Under the pieces are notes generated by a model. It was not told where the DNA came from, searched no databases, and saw only the letters and a list, made by a program, of their open reading frames with translations. This document shows, piece by piece, positions 26,174 through 31,403 of a stretch of DNA of 50,211 nucleotides (its first letter is position 1; each line of letters begins with the position of its first letter). This stretch comes from Nitrospirota bacterium (GTDB lineage: Bacteria; Nitrospirota; Thermodesulfovibrionia; Thermodesulfovibrionales; UBA6898). Location of the stretch: NCBI GenBank assembly GCA_012026685.1, contig VEOY01000185.1, positions 1 through 50,211 of the forward strand. The letters run 5' to 3'. The translations under genes were made by a program, and so were the position numbers.

Positions 26174-26977
26174 ATGGATTTTACCGAAGAACAACTGCAG
26201 CGCTACAGCAGGCATATAATTCTGCCGGAGGTTGGCGGGAAAGGCCAGGCCAAGATCGCTGGTGCGAAGGTCGTACTGATCGGCGCGGGCGGACTCGGCT
26301 GTCCTGTGGGATACTATCTGACCGCAGCCGGGGTCGGGACCATAGGCCTTATTGACAGCGATACGGTCGAGATGAGCAATCTCCAGAGACAGATCGCGCA
26401 TAACGTCAACACTATCGGCATGGCCAAGGTGGAGTCCGCTGCCAGGACTTTTTCAGCCCTGAATCCTGATGTCAAGGTCGTCCAGATGAAGGTGAGGATA
26501 TCAAAAGACAATATCATCGACCTTATTAAAGATTTCGATATCGTCGTTGATGGAAGTGACAATTTTCCGACAAGATATTTGGTGAACGACGCCTGTGTCA
26601 TGGCGGGGAAACCCTTGGTGAGCGGTGCTATCCTGAGGTTTGAAGGGCAGGTCACCACGATTATTCCCGGCAAGGGGCATTGTTATCGTTGTCTTTTCGA
26701 AGAGCCCCCTCCGCCGGGACTTGTGCCGTCATGTCAGGAGGCAGGTGTTCTCGGTGTCCTGCCCGGTGTCATCGGCGGTCTTCAGGCCACAGAGGTCCTG
26801 AAGCTTATCCTCGGCAAAGGAGAAACGCTCGTAGATGAACTTCTCATCTATAATGCGTTGAATACCTCTTTCCGTAAGGTCAGGGTCCCACGGAACCCTT
26901 TGTGTCCCATTTGCAGCGACCGTCCATCCATCACCAAACTCGTGGATTATAACGAGGGATACTGTACCCTCCCGTAG
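26174..26977 (+). CDS. MoeB/ThiF-family sulfur-carrier adenylyltransferase
   Basis: E1-like enzyme of 267 residues that adenylates the C-terminal glycine of small ubiquitin-like sulfur carriers (MoaD, ThiS, CysO type). It starts MDFTEEQLQRYSRHIILPEVG, typical of MoeB. The ATP loop is GAGGLGCPVG (37-46), followed by DSDTVEMSNLQRQ. Zinc cysteines are Cys170, Cys173, Cys244 and Cys247, with a conserved Cys187. No carrier gene is adjacent. A JAMM protease follows after 7 nt. Whether it serves molybdopterin, thiamine or cysteine synthesis cannot be decided here; the hom neighbour favours amino-acid sulfur (inference). Confidence 0.92.
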   Translation: MDFTEEQLQRYSRHIILPEVGGKGQAKIAGAKVVLIGAGGLGCPVGYYLTAAGVGTIGLIDSDTVEMSNLQRQIAHNVNTIGMAKVESAARTFSALNPDVKVVQMKVRISKDNIIDLIKDFDIVVDGSDNFPTRYLVNDACVMAGKPLVSGAILRFEGQVTTIIPGKGHCYRCLFEEPPPPGLVPSCQEAGVLGVLPGVIGGLQATEVLKLILGKGETLVDELLIYNALNTSFRKVRVPRNPLCPICSDRPSITKLVDYNEGYCTLP

Positions 26978-26984
26978 CTTTTGT

Positions 26985-27392
26985 ATGACTGAACTGATCA
27001 TCCCGAAAGATCTCTTCGAAACGATTCTTGACCATTGCAGGACTGCCCGTCCGAATGAAGCGTGCGGCATTCTGGCCGGAAGAGGTGAGCAGGTGAGCAG
27101 GGTATACGCCATGACGAACATTGAACCTTCCCCGGTCAGCTACTTCATGGACCCGGGTGAGCAGCTGCGTGTTCAAAAGGAAATGAGAGAGCGGGGCGAG
27201 GAAATGGTAGCCATCTATCATTCTCATCCCCAATCTCCGGCATATCCTTCGGTTAAGGATGTGACCCTTGCGTTCTACGAGGATTCCTTTTATGTAATCG
27301 TTAGTCTTTCTGAAGGCATTGTTAACGGGATGAAGGCTTTTTCCATCGTCGAGGGTACGGTCAGCGAAATCCCTCTCACGATAGCGGATTGA
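26985..27392 (+). CDS. JAMM/MPN+ metalloprotease (Mec/RadC-like)
   Basis: 135-residue zinc isopeptidase with the complete JAMM motif: Glu25 (NEACGIL), His79 and His81 (YHSHPQSPAYPS), Ser89 and Asp92. Bacterial stand-alone members such as mycobacterial Mec+ and its relatives process the C terminus of sulfur-carrier proteins or release cysteine from them. Pairing with the E1-like gene 7 nt upstream supports this role. It is the last gene before the riboswitch-controlled region. Confidence 0.9.
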   Translation: MTELIIPKDLFETILDHCRTARPNEACGILAGRGEQVSRVYAMTNIEPSPVSYFMDPGEQLRVQKEMRERGEEMVAIYHSHPQSPAYPSVKDVTLAFYEDSFYVIVSLSEGIVNGMKAFSIVEGTVSEIPLTIAD

Positions 27393-27398
27393 TTTCTA

Positions 27399-27427
27399 TT
27401 GACCGGACAATACGGATTTTTTAAAAT
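27399..27427 (+). promoter_or_regulatory. Promoter of the htpX transcript
   Basis: TTGACC (27399-27404), a 17-nt spacer and TAAAAT (27422-27427). The predicted start lies near 27434, exactly where the riboswitch P1 stem begins. Confidence 0.7.
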
Positions 27428-27433
27428 ATACTT

Positions 27434-27546
27434 GATAAAGGGGAGTAGCTCCCTGAGAGGTTGACTGGATCGTCAGCACGTCTGCAGCAGCAGGCCGGTC
27501 CATTCAGTTATACAGGAGATGGTGTATAACAGGCAAGACCTTTATC
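27434..27546 (+). promoter_or_regulatory. yybP-ykoY manganese riboswitch upstream of htpX
   Basis: Matches the Mn2+-sensing yybP-ykoY aptamer. The 5' element AAAGGGGAGTAGC and the 3' element GCAAGACCTTTATC are both present, and GATAAAGG (27434-27441) pairs perfectly with CCTTTATC (27539-27546) to form P1. The internal docking segment reads ATCGTCAGCACG followed by GCCGGTCC, comparable to GUCGUCAAUxCG and CCGGC of the known aptamers. An additional hairpin (GTTATACAG and GTGTATAAC) fills the last arm. The element lies just before a terminator and htpX. Confidence 0.93.
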
Positions 27547-27594
27547 CCGGCTGGTGAAAGGCGCATCTTCACACGGCAGGGGTAAGGGTTTTTT
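27539..27594 (+). terminator. Riboswitch expression platform (terminator) before htpX
   Basis: CCTTTATCCC (27539-27548) can pair with GGGGTAAGG (27579-27587) with one bulged base. An inner GTGAA/TTCAC stem lies inside, and six Ts follow at 27589-27594. The 5' strand of this terminator is the 3' strand of riboswitch P1, so ligand-stabilised P1 would prevent termination: a transcriptional ON switch. Confidence 0.8.
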
Positions 27595-27618
27595 AATTTG
27601 AGTACGAAGGAGGAATCA

Positions 27619-28458
27619 ATGAATACGGTAAAAACATTCATGCTAATGCTGTTTCTTACGCTTTTGCTGGTGTTCGGCGGGGCAGCGATCGGCGGACAGC
27701 GGGGGATGACCTATGCGCTGATGATGGCTTTTTTCATGAACTTCATCACGTATTTCTTCAGTGACAAGATCGTTCTGAGGATGTATCGCGCGCAGGAGGT
27801 TAGCGAGGCAGATGCGCCGGTCCTGTATCGCATTGTAAAAAGGCTCACCCAGAAGGCCGGCATGCCCATGCCGAAGGTCTACATCATCCCGGACGATTCG
27901 CCGAATGCGTTTGCTACGGGTCGGAGTCCGAAACATGCCGCGGTAGCAGCTACCGAGGGGATCATGCGGATATTAAGTGAGGATGAGCTTGCGGGGGTCA
28001 TGGCCCATGAACTGGCGCATGTAAGGCACAGGGATATTCTCATCGGCACGATCGCCGCGACAATAGCGGGCGCCATCAGCTACCTGGCACAGATGGCGTT
28101 CTTCTTTGGAGGCAGGAGCGACGATGACGAGGGTGGAAATCCTTTCGTGGCGATTCTCATGATGATCCTTGCGCCTATAGCCGCGATGCTGATACAGATG
28201 GCGATATCCCGTTCGCGGGAATATGCAGCCGATGCCGGAGGCGCACAGCTTCATGGTAATCCCATGGCACTCGCAAATGCGCTCAGAAAATTGCATGAAG
28301 GATCTCAGGCCATCCCAATGCATGCAACCCCCGCGACTTCCCATATGATGATCGTCAACCCGCTTTCGGGGGGGGCAATGATGAGACTGTTCAGCACGCA
28401 TCCGCCGGTCGAGGAAAGGATCGCAAGGCTTCAGTCCATGAGAATAGGCAGCATGTAA
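27619..28458 (+). CDS. htpX: Membrane M48 metalloprotease HtpX
   Basis: Inner-membrane zinc endopeptidase that degrades misfolded membrane proteins. The product is 279 residues from ATG 27619, which follows AAGGAGG; an in-frame TTG at 27598 is disfavoured. Two N-terminal membrane helices are followed by the active site HELAH (His130, Glu131, His134) and the third ligand Glu201 in [11 protein letters not shown]; two further helices lie between them, and the end is [12 protein letters not shown]. The unusual feature is control by a Mn2+ riboswitch with terminator. Confidence 0.95.
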
Positions 28459-28561
28459 GCTACAGGGACCAAGGCTCTTCGCCCTGACACTCGTCCCGGG
28501 AGACGGAGATGGTTGTAGGTCACAAAAACTGATTTTTTGAGATAATTCGGTGTGTTCGGAT
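28459..28561. other. Spacer between htpX and the second riboswitch
   Basis: About 100 nt without a gene or a clear terminator for htpX. It carries the extended -10 box at 28538-28546. Together with the riboswitch and its terminator it forms the 305-nt gap between htpX and the ATPase gene. Confidence 0.5.
28538..28546 (+). promoter_or_regulatory. Possible extended -10 promoter of the ATPase transcript
   Basis: TGA-GATAAT lies about 15 nt before the riboswitch P1 stem. No good -35 box is seen (GGTCAC at the expected place). If it is inactive, the second riboswitch would act on read-through from htpX. Confidence 0.4.
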
Positions 28562-28657
28562 GTAAAGGGGAGTAGCTGGACAGTGACTGTCGTCAATACG
28601 TCCGCCTGAGGTGGACCGGCGTCACTGGTCAGATAACCTGACAAGCAAGACCTTTAC
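28562..28657 (+). promoter_or_regulatory. yybP-ykoY manganese riboswitch upstream of P-type ATPase
   Basis: A second, independent copy of the Mn2+ aptamer. GTAAAGG (28562-28568) pairs with CCTTTAC (28651-28657) as P1. The conserved parts are AAAGGGGAGTAGC, TGTCGTCAATACG, ACCGGCG and ACAAGCAAGACC. The peripheral arms differ from the first copy, so this is not a recent tandem duplication of the whole element. Confidence 0.94.
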
Positions 28658-28709
28658 TGCAATTAATATGTGCGATAGGCTATTAGTTGTATTAGAGGTC
28701 TTTTCTTTT
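28647..28709 (+). terminator. Riboswitch expression platform (terminator) before the ATPase
   Basis: AAGACCT (28647-28653), which belongs to the aptamer 3' strand, can pair with AGGTCTT (28696-28702). TTTTCTTTT follows at 28701-28709. As with the first riboswitch, the terminator competes with P1, predicting that ligand binding allows transcription of the ATPase. Confidence 0.7.
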
Positions 28710-28763
28710 GGACGTGAATATGGTCGTTATGTCGGAGAAGCCGAATGAACGGGGAAGGAAATC

Positions 28764-31403
28764 ATGCGCTGGCACCAACACGGTATAAAAGAGATCCTAG
28801 AGAAATTGGATTCGTCAGCTCAGGGGATATCGTCAAAAGAAGCGTTGAAGCGATTCGAAGCGTTCGGACCTAATGAGCTGAAGGAAAAGAAAAAGAAGAC
28901 GCCGTTCATGATGCTCCTTGATCAGTTCAGGGATTTCATGATCCTTGTCCTTGTTGTGGCTGCTGTCATCTCGGGTTTCATCGGCGAACTTTCGGACACC
29001 GTTGCCATTATCGTCATCGTCGTTCTTAACGCGGTCATCGGCTTCATTCAGGAATACCGCGCTGAGCAGGCCATGGCAGCCCTTAAAAAGATGTCTGCGC
29101 CGTCTGCCACGGTCATACGGGAGGGCCTGCCAGCGGTCATCGCGGCATCTCATCTCGTTCCCGGAGATCTCATCGTTCTTGAGGCCGGAAATATTGTCCC
29201 GGCAGACGCGAGATTGATAGAGTCTGCTCAACTGAAAGTGGAGGAAGCAGCTCTTACCGGGGAATCCATTCCAGTTGATAAACGGACGGAAACGCTGCGT
29301 GACGAACAGCTGCCGGTCGGAGACAGGAATAACATGGCATATAAGGGCACATTCGTTACCTACGGACGCGGCAAGGGTATCGTTGCGGCAACGGGAATGG
29401 ATACGGAGCTTGGCCACATTGCCAGGATGCTTCAGGAGGAGGAAGAGGTGAAGACCCCTCTTCAGAAAAGGCTTGCCGGGTTCGGCCAAAAACTTGCCAT
29501 TGCTGTCCTTGCAATATGCGCCGTTGTCTTCGCTATCGGTATCATGCGCGGAGAGCCCCCCCTGCTGATGCTGCTCACTGCCATCTCTCTGGCTGTTGCG
29601 GCAATACCTGAGGCCCTTCCCGCAGTGATAACTATTTCGCTCGCTCTCGGGGCCAAGAAGCTGGTAAAGCAGAATGCTTTGATCAGAAAGCTGCCGGCCG
29701 TGGAGACGCTTGGTTCGGTAACGTATATCTGCTCTGACAAGACAGGGACGCTCACGTTGAACCGGATGTCTGTTGAGGAGATGTACGCTGACGGGAAAAT
29801 AGTCACAAGTCAGTCGCTGGGAGCCGGGAATGAAGAGAAAACAACGGATATCTCACGCAGCACGCCTTATCACCCGCTTCTGATCGCCCTTGCACTGAGT
29901 AACGACGTCCGTAAGGATGGCGCAGGCAGTGTTATTGGCGATCCGACGGAAGTCGCACTTTACAATATCGCCGGGGAAAACGGTTTTAAAAAGAATGAGG
30001 TTGAGGGTCTCCATGTTCGAGTAGCGGAGATTCCGTTTGATTCTGACAGAAAGCTCATGACAACAATTCATGCGTGGAACGAGGGATTTGTTTCTTTCAC
30101 GAAGGGCGCGATAGATGTCCTGATAGACAGGGCGGACATGATATTGACCTCAAGGGGTCCCGAACCCATAAACAAGGAGGAAATTCATCGGGTCAATGAC
30201 AGGATGGCGGCCGATGGCCTGAGAGTGCTCGGCATTGCCATGAGGAAATGGGATGCAGTCCCGAATGATATGTCGCCTGAATATGTGGAAGCAGACCTGA
30301 CGGTGTTAGGTCTTGTCGGCATTATGGACCCCCCGAGGGATGAGGCAAAAGAGGCGGTCAGGGTGTGCAGAACGGCAGGCATAAAGCCGGTCATGATAAC
30401 CGGCGATCATCCCCTTACCGCAAGAGCCATAGCCAGAAGGCTGGACATTCTGGAGGATGATTCAAGGGCGATAATCACGGGGAAAGAGCTCGATAAACTG
30501 TCATTGGAGGAATTTGAAGAAAAGGTTGAGCATATCAGGGTCTATGCGAGGGTCGCACCTGAACAGAAGTTAAAGATAGTCAAGGCACTCCAGGACAAGG
30601 GACAGTTTGTTGCCATGACAGGTGACGGGGTAAACGATGCCCCGGCGCTGAAAAGAGCGGACATCGGCATTGCGATGGGGATTACCGGCACAGATGTCTC
30701 CAAGGAAGCTGCACATATGATACTTCTCGACGACAATTTCGCTACCATTGTGAAAGCCGTCAGGGAAGGTCGCAAGATTTATGATAACATCAGAAAATTC
30801 ATAAAATATCTCCTTACAACGAATTCGGGCGAGATATGGACCCTTTTCCTTGCTCCGCTGGTAGGCCTTCCTGTACCCCTTCTGCCCATCCACATACTCT
30901 GGATAAACCTGGTGACTGACGGGCTTCCGGCACTCGCACTCTCCGTTGAGCCTGCAGAAGGGGATGTTATGAGCAGACCTCCGCGGCATCCGAAAGAAAG
31001 TCTGTTCGCCCACGGTCTTGGCGCCCATGCGATCTGGGTCGGCCTCTTAATGGCCGGCGTTGTTCTCTTAGTTCAGGCATGGGCTATCAGGACGGAACAC
31101 GTTCACTGGCAGACCATGGTATTTACCGTGCTCTGCCTGACACAGCTTGGACATGTCCTGGCCATACGGTCGGAAAAAGAATCATTGTTCAAGATAGGGA
31201 TATTTTCCAATAGGTATCTTCTCTGTGCGGTCCTCCTGACCTTCGCCCTGCAGATGGCTACAGTATACGTGCCGGTACTTCAGCCGATATTCAAGACTGA
31301 GTCCCTGACCCTGAACGAATTCGTTATAACGATCCTGCTTTCATCGGTGGTGTTCATTGCCGTCGAGATGGAAAAACTTTTAAAGCGAAAAAAAGCCTTC
31401 TGA
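28764..31403 (+). CDS. SERCA/PMR1-like P-type cation-transporting ATPase (probable Mn2+/Ca2+ exporter)
   Basis: P2-type ATPase of 879 residues with a cation-ATPase N-terminal domain, an actuator loop ALTGESIPV, phosphorylated Asp325 in CSDKTGTLT and a hinge GDGVNDAPALK. Ion-site residues resemble SERCA: M4 PEALP (Glu283), M5 TTNSGE (Asn687, Glu690) and M6 WINLVTDG (Asn715, Asp719). By hand alignment the M8 position of SERCA Glu908 is Gln, which is tentative. The family exports Ca2+ or Mn2+. The Mn2+ riboswitch directly upstream argues for Mn2+, as for riboswitch-controlled homologues in other bacteria. GGGGAAGGA precedes the ATG. Confidence 0.93.
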   Translation: MRWHQHGIKEILEKLDSSAQGISSKEALKRFEAFGPNELKEKKKKTPFMMLLDQFRDFMILVLVVAAVISGFIGELSDTVAIIVIVVLNAVIGFIQEYRAEQAMAALKKMSAPSATVIREGLPAVIAASHLVPGDLIVLEAGNIVPADARLIESAQLKVEEAALTGESIPVDKRTETLRDEQLPVGDRNNMAYKGTFVTYGRGKGIVAATGMDTELGHIARMLQEEEEVKTPLQKRLAGFGQKLAIAVLAICAVVFAIGIMRGEPPLLMLLTAISLAVAAIPEALPAVITISLALGAKKLVKQNALIRKLPAVETLGSVTYICSDKTGTLTLNRMSVEEMYADGKIVTSQSLGAGNEEKTTDISRSTPYHPLLIALALSNDVRKDGAGSVIGDPTEVALYNIAGENGFKKNEVEGLHVRVAEIPFDSDRKLMTTIHAWNEGFVSFTKGAIDVLIDRADMILTSRGPEPINKEEIHRVNDRMAADGLRVLGIAMRKWDAVPNDMSPEYVEADLTVLGLVGIMDPPRDEAKEAVRVCRTAGIKPVMITGDHPLTARAIARRLDILEDDSRAIITGKELDKLSLEEFEEKVEHIRVYARVAPEQKLKIVKALQDKGQFVAMTGDGVNDAPALKRADIGIAMGITGTDVSKEAAHMILLDDNFATIVKAVREGRKIYDNIRKFIKYLLTTNSGEIWTLFLAPLVGLPVPLLPIHILWINLVTDGLPALALSVEPAEGDVMSRPPRHPKESLFAHGLGAHAIWVGLLMAGVVLLVQAWAIRTEHVHWQTMVFTVLCLTQLGHVLAIRSEKESLFKIGIFSNRYLLCAVLLTFALQMATVYVPVLQPIFKTESLTLNEFVITILLSSVVFIAVEMEKLLKRKKAF

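Follow-up and report, generated by a model that had tools for sequence, protein, structure and literature searches.

The htpX locus

HtpX is a membrane protease that acts on damaged inner-membrane proteins, and the question raised by the locus analysed here is whether, and by what means, a metal-sensing RNA governs transcription of its gene. The window, the whole 50,211-nucleotide stretch of contig VEOY01000185.1 (assembly GCA_012026685.1, Nitrospirota bacterium), carries htpX at 27619-28458 on its forward strand, to which all coordinates below refer. In the leader of this gene a preliminary description had read an aptamer and an intrinsic terminator that use one strand in common, so that binding of a metal should allow read-through into htpX. 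On the evidence given below, the leader is very probably a transcriptional ON riboswitch of the yybP-ykoY (Mn2+) class, in which the P1 helix and the terminator compete for that strand.

The 279-aa product is recognized as zinc metalloprotease HtpX by NCBIfam NF002826 (422 bits, cut-off 369) and by Pfam Peptidase_M48, its ATG start is the one found in homologues, and a Shine-Dalgarno sequence, AAGGAGG, is present at 27607-27613. A sigma70-like promoter (TTGACC-17-TAAAAT, 27399-27427) agrees with the consensus at 10 of 12 positions, a score for which the scanner expects 1.9 sites per 2 kb by chance; a similar TTGAC...TAAAAT occupies the same place in relatives, and as judged from its sequence the site would begin the transcript just upstream of P1. 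Further upstream (26174-27392) lie genes for a MoeB/ThiF-like E1 enzyme and for a JAMM-type protein resembling archaeal desampylase.

Architecture and class of the aptamer

The aptamer is closed by P1, the switch helix P1.1, an 8-bp helix with conserved and covarying strands in which GATAAAGG (27434-27441) pairs with CCTTTATC (27539-27546). The L1 region GGGGAGTAGC (27440-27449), a signature of yybP-ykoY aptamers, overlaps both neighbouring helices, its first two G lying within P1 and its last G and C within P1.2; the signature proper, GGGGAGUAG, spans 27440-27448 and closes on P1, the 3' side reading CAAGACC (27534-27540). It is followed by a short P2-like hairpin of 2-3 bp, CCCTGAGAGG (27451-27460), as read from the 13-copy alignment described below; it is weak in the window, better formed in relatives within the genus (CCC-TGAT-GGG) and missing from the copies with a three-way junction. 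The P3 arm (27462-27506) is built from 27462-27472 paired with 27496-27506, contains L3, TCAGCAC (27473-27479), and is extended by P3.2 (27480-27484 with 27491-27495), and the P4 hairpin GTTATAC...GTATAAC occupies 27507-27530. The aptamer folds more stably than its shuffles (z = -3.2). When it is folded alone and unconstrained by RNAfold, a local GGGGAG/CUCCC hairpin (27440-27454) competes with L1, which suggests that folding of the aptamer may depend on metal or on tertiary contacts.

No match in the window is reported by Rfam at the gathering threshold. Under permissive settings the top family at the site is the Mn2+ riboswitch, RF00080, with 20.2 bits (E 0.004), a score well short of the 45 bits of the gathering score, which is a detection threshold and not a biological property. 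Among five control genomes with matches, that of L. lactis included, the cut-off was exceeded in only two, and three relatives of the window locus are matched by RF00080 with genome-wide E values of 5e-5 to 2e-4. A covariance model, R1, was built from an alignment of 13 copies from the order, comprising the window locus and 12 relatives. All 13 have in common GGGGAGUAGC and CAAGACCUUU; L3, the loop that in this class bears the metal-contacting adenosine, reads UCANNAC in each, with both adenosines invariant. In this alignment 34 double-change cells were counted, against 13.3 in shuffled and 2-14 in slid alignments; the covariation score is 0.294 versus 0.176 for shuffles, double changes occur in 12 of 31 pairs, and helix 3 alone has six pairs with changes on both sides. 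A secondary structure with P1, P1.2, P3 with its L3 bulge and P4 is thus supported by covariation that was observed directly.

In the genome of E. coli, R1 recovers the two experimentally proven Mn2+ riboswitches, mntP (37.8 bits, E 9.5e-11) and alx (36.0 bits, E 3.7e-10), and the next match reaches only 9.0 bits (E 0.28). The alx aptamer (CGUCAUUACG) agrees with the L1/L3 signature (GGGGAGUAG, UCANNAC) and has the same 7-nt form of L3. Based on this reciprocal homology, itself a direct observation, the aptamer is assigned to the yybP-ykoY (Mn2+) class, with Mn2+ as its predicted ligand. Likewise, 18 named loci of Geobacter and Acidobacteria all fail at the Rfam gathering threshold and are recovered by R1 with E values of 1e-7 to 1e-15, which indicates that the silence of Rfam is a problem of sensitivity and not an absence of the aptamer.

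Mutual exclusion of P1 and the terminator

The intrinsic terminator (27537-27594) consists of a basal stem, an upper stem and a T-run. Its basal stem has 12 continuous pairs, G-U pairs included, between 27537-27548 and 27579-27590, and the run has exactly six T (27589-27594), as the preliminary description had stated. The same description took the whole of CCTTTATCCC (27539-27548) for a strand used by both structures; both roles were confirmed, and the overlap proved to be the 8 nt of CCTTTATC, the two C at 27547-27548 belonging to the terminator alone. The right arm that had been given as GGGGTAAGG does pair, without a bulge, and is in reality GGGGTAAGGG (27579-27588), one G longer. The hairpin has a folding energy of -26.1 kcal/mol (z = -5.3), a value equalled in none of 200 shuffles. 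A simple consensus scanner for terminators did not list the hairpin at 27537-27594, because its internal loop falls outside the rule of that scanner.

Since 27539-27546 is used by P1 as well as by the terminator, the two structures cannot coexist, and constrained folding bears this out. Left unconstrained, the leader (27428-27600) adopts the terminator state, with an energy of -67.1 kcal/mol, whereas the best fold with P1 enforced reaches -52.1 kcal/mol, a cost of about 15 kcal/mol. In the latter all that is left of the terminator is a hairpin of -12.5 kcal/mol (27547-27580), detached from the U-tract, with its base 8 nt short of it. The mutual exclusion proposed in the preliminary description is therefore a direct result of sequence and folding, with no coexistence of P1 and terminator found in either fold. 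When the growing transcript was folded, the pairing probability of P1 rose to 0.69 before synthesis of the right arm, and the terminator had taken over completely by position 27590. As the terminator wins at equilibrium, read-through would need P1 to be held by its ligand in the short interval before the right arm is made, and by the folding model the switch would operate in a kinetic regime like that reported for the riboswitch of L. lactis (PMC11087558).

The shared strand in other genomes

R1 matches were found in 58 of the 176 genomes of the order, from which 78 distinct aptamers were extracted. In addition, 84,980 species were scanned for AAGACCTTT with an htpX start downstream of it, which gave at least 119 matching stretches; among the 80 listed ones that were examined, 47 encode HtpX and 46 of these 47 have the aptamer directly upstream. 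Such loci occur in Nitrospirae (Thermodesulfovibrionia), in Geobacter, Geomonas, Geotalea, Citrifermentans, Desulfuromonas and related bacteria, and in Acidobacteria, and the order aptamer-terminator-htpX is accordingly conserved at no fewer than 46 loci in Nitrospirae, relatives of Geobacter and Acidobacteria, a link to htpX that is observed directly. Matches to the pattern in Clostridia, Bacillus, Psychrobacter and Legionella had neither an R1 match nor HtpX, and were dropped as chance.

Taken together, the order set and the species-scan set comprise 108 canonical aptamers, all of them distinct, which come from three phyla. GGGGAGUA is present in all 108, being the rule of inclusion for the count, GGGGAGUAG in 107 and GGGGAGUAAC in the remaining one, and L3 has the form UCANNAC (UCANNAC[GC]) in 94. 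An intrinsic terminator with the 3' strand of P1 as its left arm accompanies 99 of the 108. Because this count looked for stems able to pair with the shared strand, it partly selects for the terminator pairing; it does not select for P1 pairing, although the covariance model does favour the latter. Of the nine aptamers scored as lacking a terminator, four, from Acidobacteria, have a shared-strand stem with a weaker U-tract (TCTTTCG). Where a base of the shared strand changes, from A to G or from A to T, both of its partners tend to follow, giving the combinations A-U/U, G-C/C and U-A/A, the last of which occurs in Acidobacteria. Both pairings are kept at position 5 in 91 of 99 cases (73.7 in shuffles) and at position 6 in 83 of 99 (62.5 in shuffles), values reached by none of 2000 shuffles, uncorrected for kinship. 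A strand constrained in this way by two alternative partners is the signature of a switch.

Genes behind the aptamers and a second riboswitch

Among the 74 aptamers of the order with readable downstream sequence, the commonest first gene is htpX (31 of 74, in five families), followed by beta-carbonic anhydrase (11), P-type ATPase (9), a Zn-ribbon protein that is often followed by an ATPase (7), GDT1/UPF0016 (6), TerC and UPF0114 (3 each) and UPF0182 and Band-7 (2 each). Riboswitches of the yybP-ykoY class usually control GDT1, TerC and cation ATPases. The known or likely Mn2+ exporters among these genes, namely GDT1/UPF0016, TerC (a Mn2+ transporter; PMC10550928) and P-type cation ATPases, place Mn2+/Ca2+ exporters in the regulon. 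Beta-carbonic anhydrase lies behind the aptamer at L074, L079, L080, L090, L093 and L096, among other loci, and a search of the literature for carbonic anhydrase with yybP-ykoY, which covered few of the subscription papers, found no prior report. At L085 and L097 the aptamer is directly followed by a gene for a Band-7/SPFH protein that may resemble HflK, a partner of FtsH, and this would fit a theme of membrane proteolysis.

The window itself holds a second aptamer of the same class, riboswitch 2 (28561-28657), which scores 87.0 bits with R1 and is not listed by an Rfam search that admits E values up to 10. It takes the three-way-junction form, with no counterpart to the P2-like hairpin of riboswitch 1, and its terminator (28647-28710), a stem at 28647-28702 and a T-rich run, also uses the 3' strand of P1, here CCTTTAC. 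Its L3 reads UCAAUAC where that of riboswitch 1 reads UCAGCAC. Behind it lies a gene for a PMR1/SERCA-like cation-transporting P-type ATPase (28764-31403), assigned by Pfam and by its best match, TIGR01522, whose 761.6 bits lie below the curated 798.3.

Comparable systems have been described. In L. lactis yoaB an intrinsic terminator takes the 3' segment of P1.1 as its 5' half, and Mn2+ stabilizes P1.1 and gives read-through (PMC11087558); the sharing of the P1 3' strand with the terminator is the likeness to the present leader, but the target there is a Mn2+ exporter and binding of Mn2+ was measured, whereas here the target is htpX and the binding is predicted. The X. oryzae member (PDB 6N2V) combines docking of L1 on L3 with a switch helix P1.1 that is invaded by a terminator strand (PMC6754395), so that in both species competition between P1.1 and terminator leads, with Mn2+, to read-through (PMC11087558, PMC6754395). 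The switch helix and the strand invasion are shared with the window, but the X. oryzae RNA has a full four-way junction, in contrast to the small P2-like hairpin of riboswitch 1 and its lack in riboswitch 2. Three-way junctions are known among published members of the class, and in Streptococcus such an aptamer precedes the Mn2+/Ca2+ ATPase gene mgtA, much as in riboswitch 2 (PMC9495176), in a regulon without htpX as far as described. E. coli mntP, recovered by R1 as was alx, differs in being controlled through translation and Rho (PMC11647493), where the window has a shared-strand intrinsic terminator.

Proposed mechanism and alternative explanations

We propose that the transcript would begin immediately upstream of P1. 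When metal is scarce, the 3' strand of P1, CCUUUAUC, would be captured by the downstream arm GGGGUAAGGG, and the resulting terminator would stop transcription before htpX; Mn2+ would dock L1 on L3 and stabilize P1 before the right arm of the terminator emerges, so that no terminator forms and htpX is transcribed. The copy at 28561 would act likewise on the P-type cation exporter, and the window would thus hold a metal-stress gene pair for cation efflux and membrane-protein quality control. Under metal excess htpX would be transcribed along with efflux genes, and HtpX would presumably clear membrane proteins that are damaged, stalled or mis-metalated by an excess of metal (Mn2+). We infer both that Mn2+ is the ligand and in which direction, and how strongly, the Nitrospirota organism would respond. 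As a prediction, the ON switch of the preliminary description is well supported, though not new, by the exclusive structures, the shared-strand architecture in 99 of 108 aptamers, the homology with mntP and alx, the exporter genes and the mechanism published for L. lactis and X. oryzae.

The aptamer might keep this fold and this ON mechanism and have another divalent cation, such as Ca2+, Fe2+, Cd2+ or Ni2+, as its physiological ligand. Such a ligand would agree with a gene set that, beyond Mn2+ exporters, includes htpX, beta-carbonic anhydrase, a Band-7 protein and UPF0114, with the suspicion of Breaker and colleagues that the ion sensed differs in some yybP variants (PMC7266159), with the Streptococcus mgtA aptamer, which binds Ca2+ more tightly than Mn2+ even though transcription responds more to Mn2+ (reviewed in PMC9495176), and with the contribution of E. 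coli HtpX to Cd2+ resistance (PMC6391850). Nevertheless, we consider it unlikely, given an L1/L3 signature that matches the alx aptamer. Moreover, GDT1 and TerC, found behind the aptamer, are Mn2+ transporters elsewhere.

A second alternative, in which metal plays no part and the hairpin serves as a plain attenuator or terminator that always forms, being some 15 kcal/mol more stable, or merely ends the upstream gene, is very unlikely. Equilibrium folding does favour the terminator overwhelmingly, and some sister genera have a promoter and a terminator before htpX without an aptamer; but kinetic control is the rule among known transcriptional riboswitches, in which the terminator is normally the more stable structure, a promoter-like site separates the aptamer from the upstream gene, and a near-invariant aptamer core with covarying helices in three phyla is not expected of an unused element. 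Less probable still is a control that is mainly translational or Rho-dependent, for which E. coli mntP offers the precedent (PMC11647493), since the Shine-Dalgarno sequence at 27607-27613 lies outside both alternative structures, which favours control at the level of transcription, and nearly all members have an intrinsic terminator.

Significance of the link to htpX

The switch mechanism of this class was already known, and in that respect the leader adds one member. The new part, judged from the distribution of loci, appears to be the target, a Mn2+-class riboswitch before htpX that recurs in at least three bacterial phyla; no prior report was found in a search of the literature on htpX or peptidase M48 with yybP-ykoY or manganese riboswitches, a search that covered few of the subscription papers. 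The pairing, found in three phyla, leads to the prediction that bacteria meet an excess of manganese, or of a related metal, in part through membrane-protein quality control. This prediction fits the co-purification of HtpX with TerC-family Mn2+ transporters in B. subtilis (PMC10246235) and the lowered Cd2+ resistance of E. coli upon loss of HtpX (PMC6391850), and the link is directly testable in culturable strains of the Geobacter group. Many yybP-ykoY riboswitches, and with them the widespread link to htpX, go unseen at the Rfam cut-off. A broader proposal is that Nitrospirota, relatives of Geobacter and Acidobacteria hold an overlooked branch of the class with a metal-stress regulon of cation export, membrane proteolysis (HtpX, Band-7) and carbonic anhydrase, some members of which may sense ions other than Mn2+; we regard it as unlikely.

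In sister genera, some htpX leaders (L006, L008, L013, L014, L019 and L020), about 110 nt upstream of the ATG, have lost the GGGGAGUAG aptamer and kept the promoter and a strong U-tract hairpin with a left arm of CUUUAUU or similar, and may represent either an orphan expression platform or a decaying switch. One genome (G001) has two htpX paralogues, L010 and L046; the best-matching copy has a degenerate leader, and the second, 67% identical to the HtpX of the window, bears the riboswitch.
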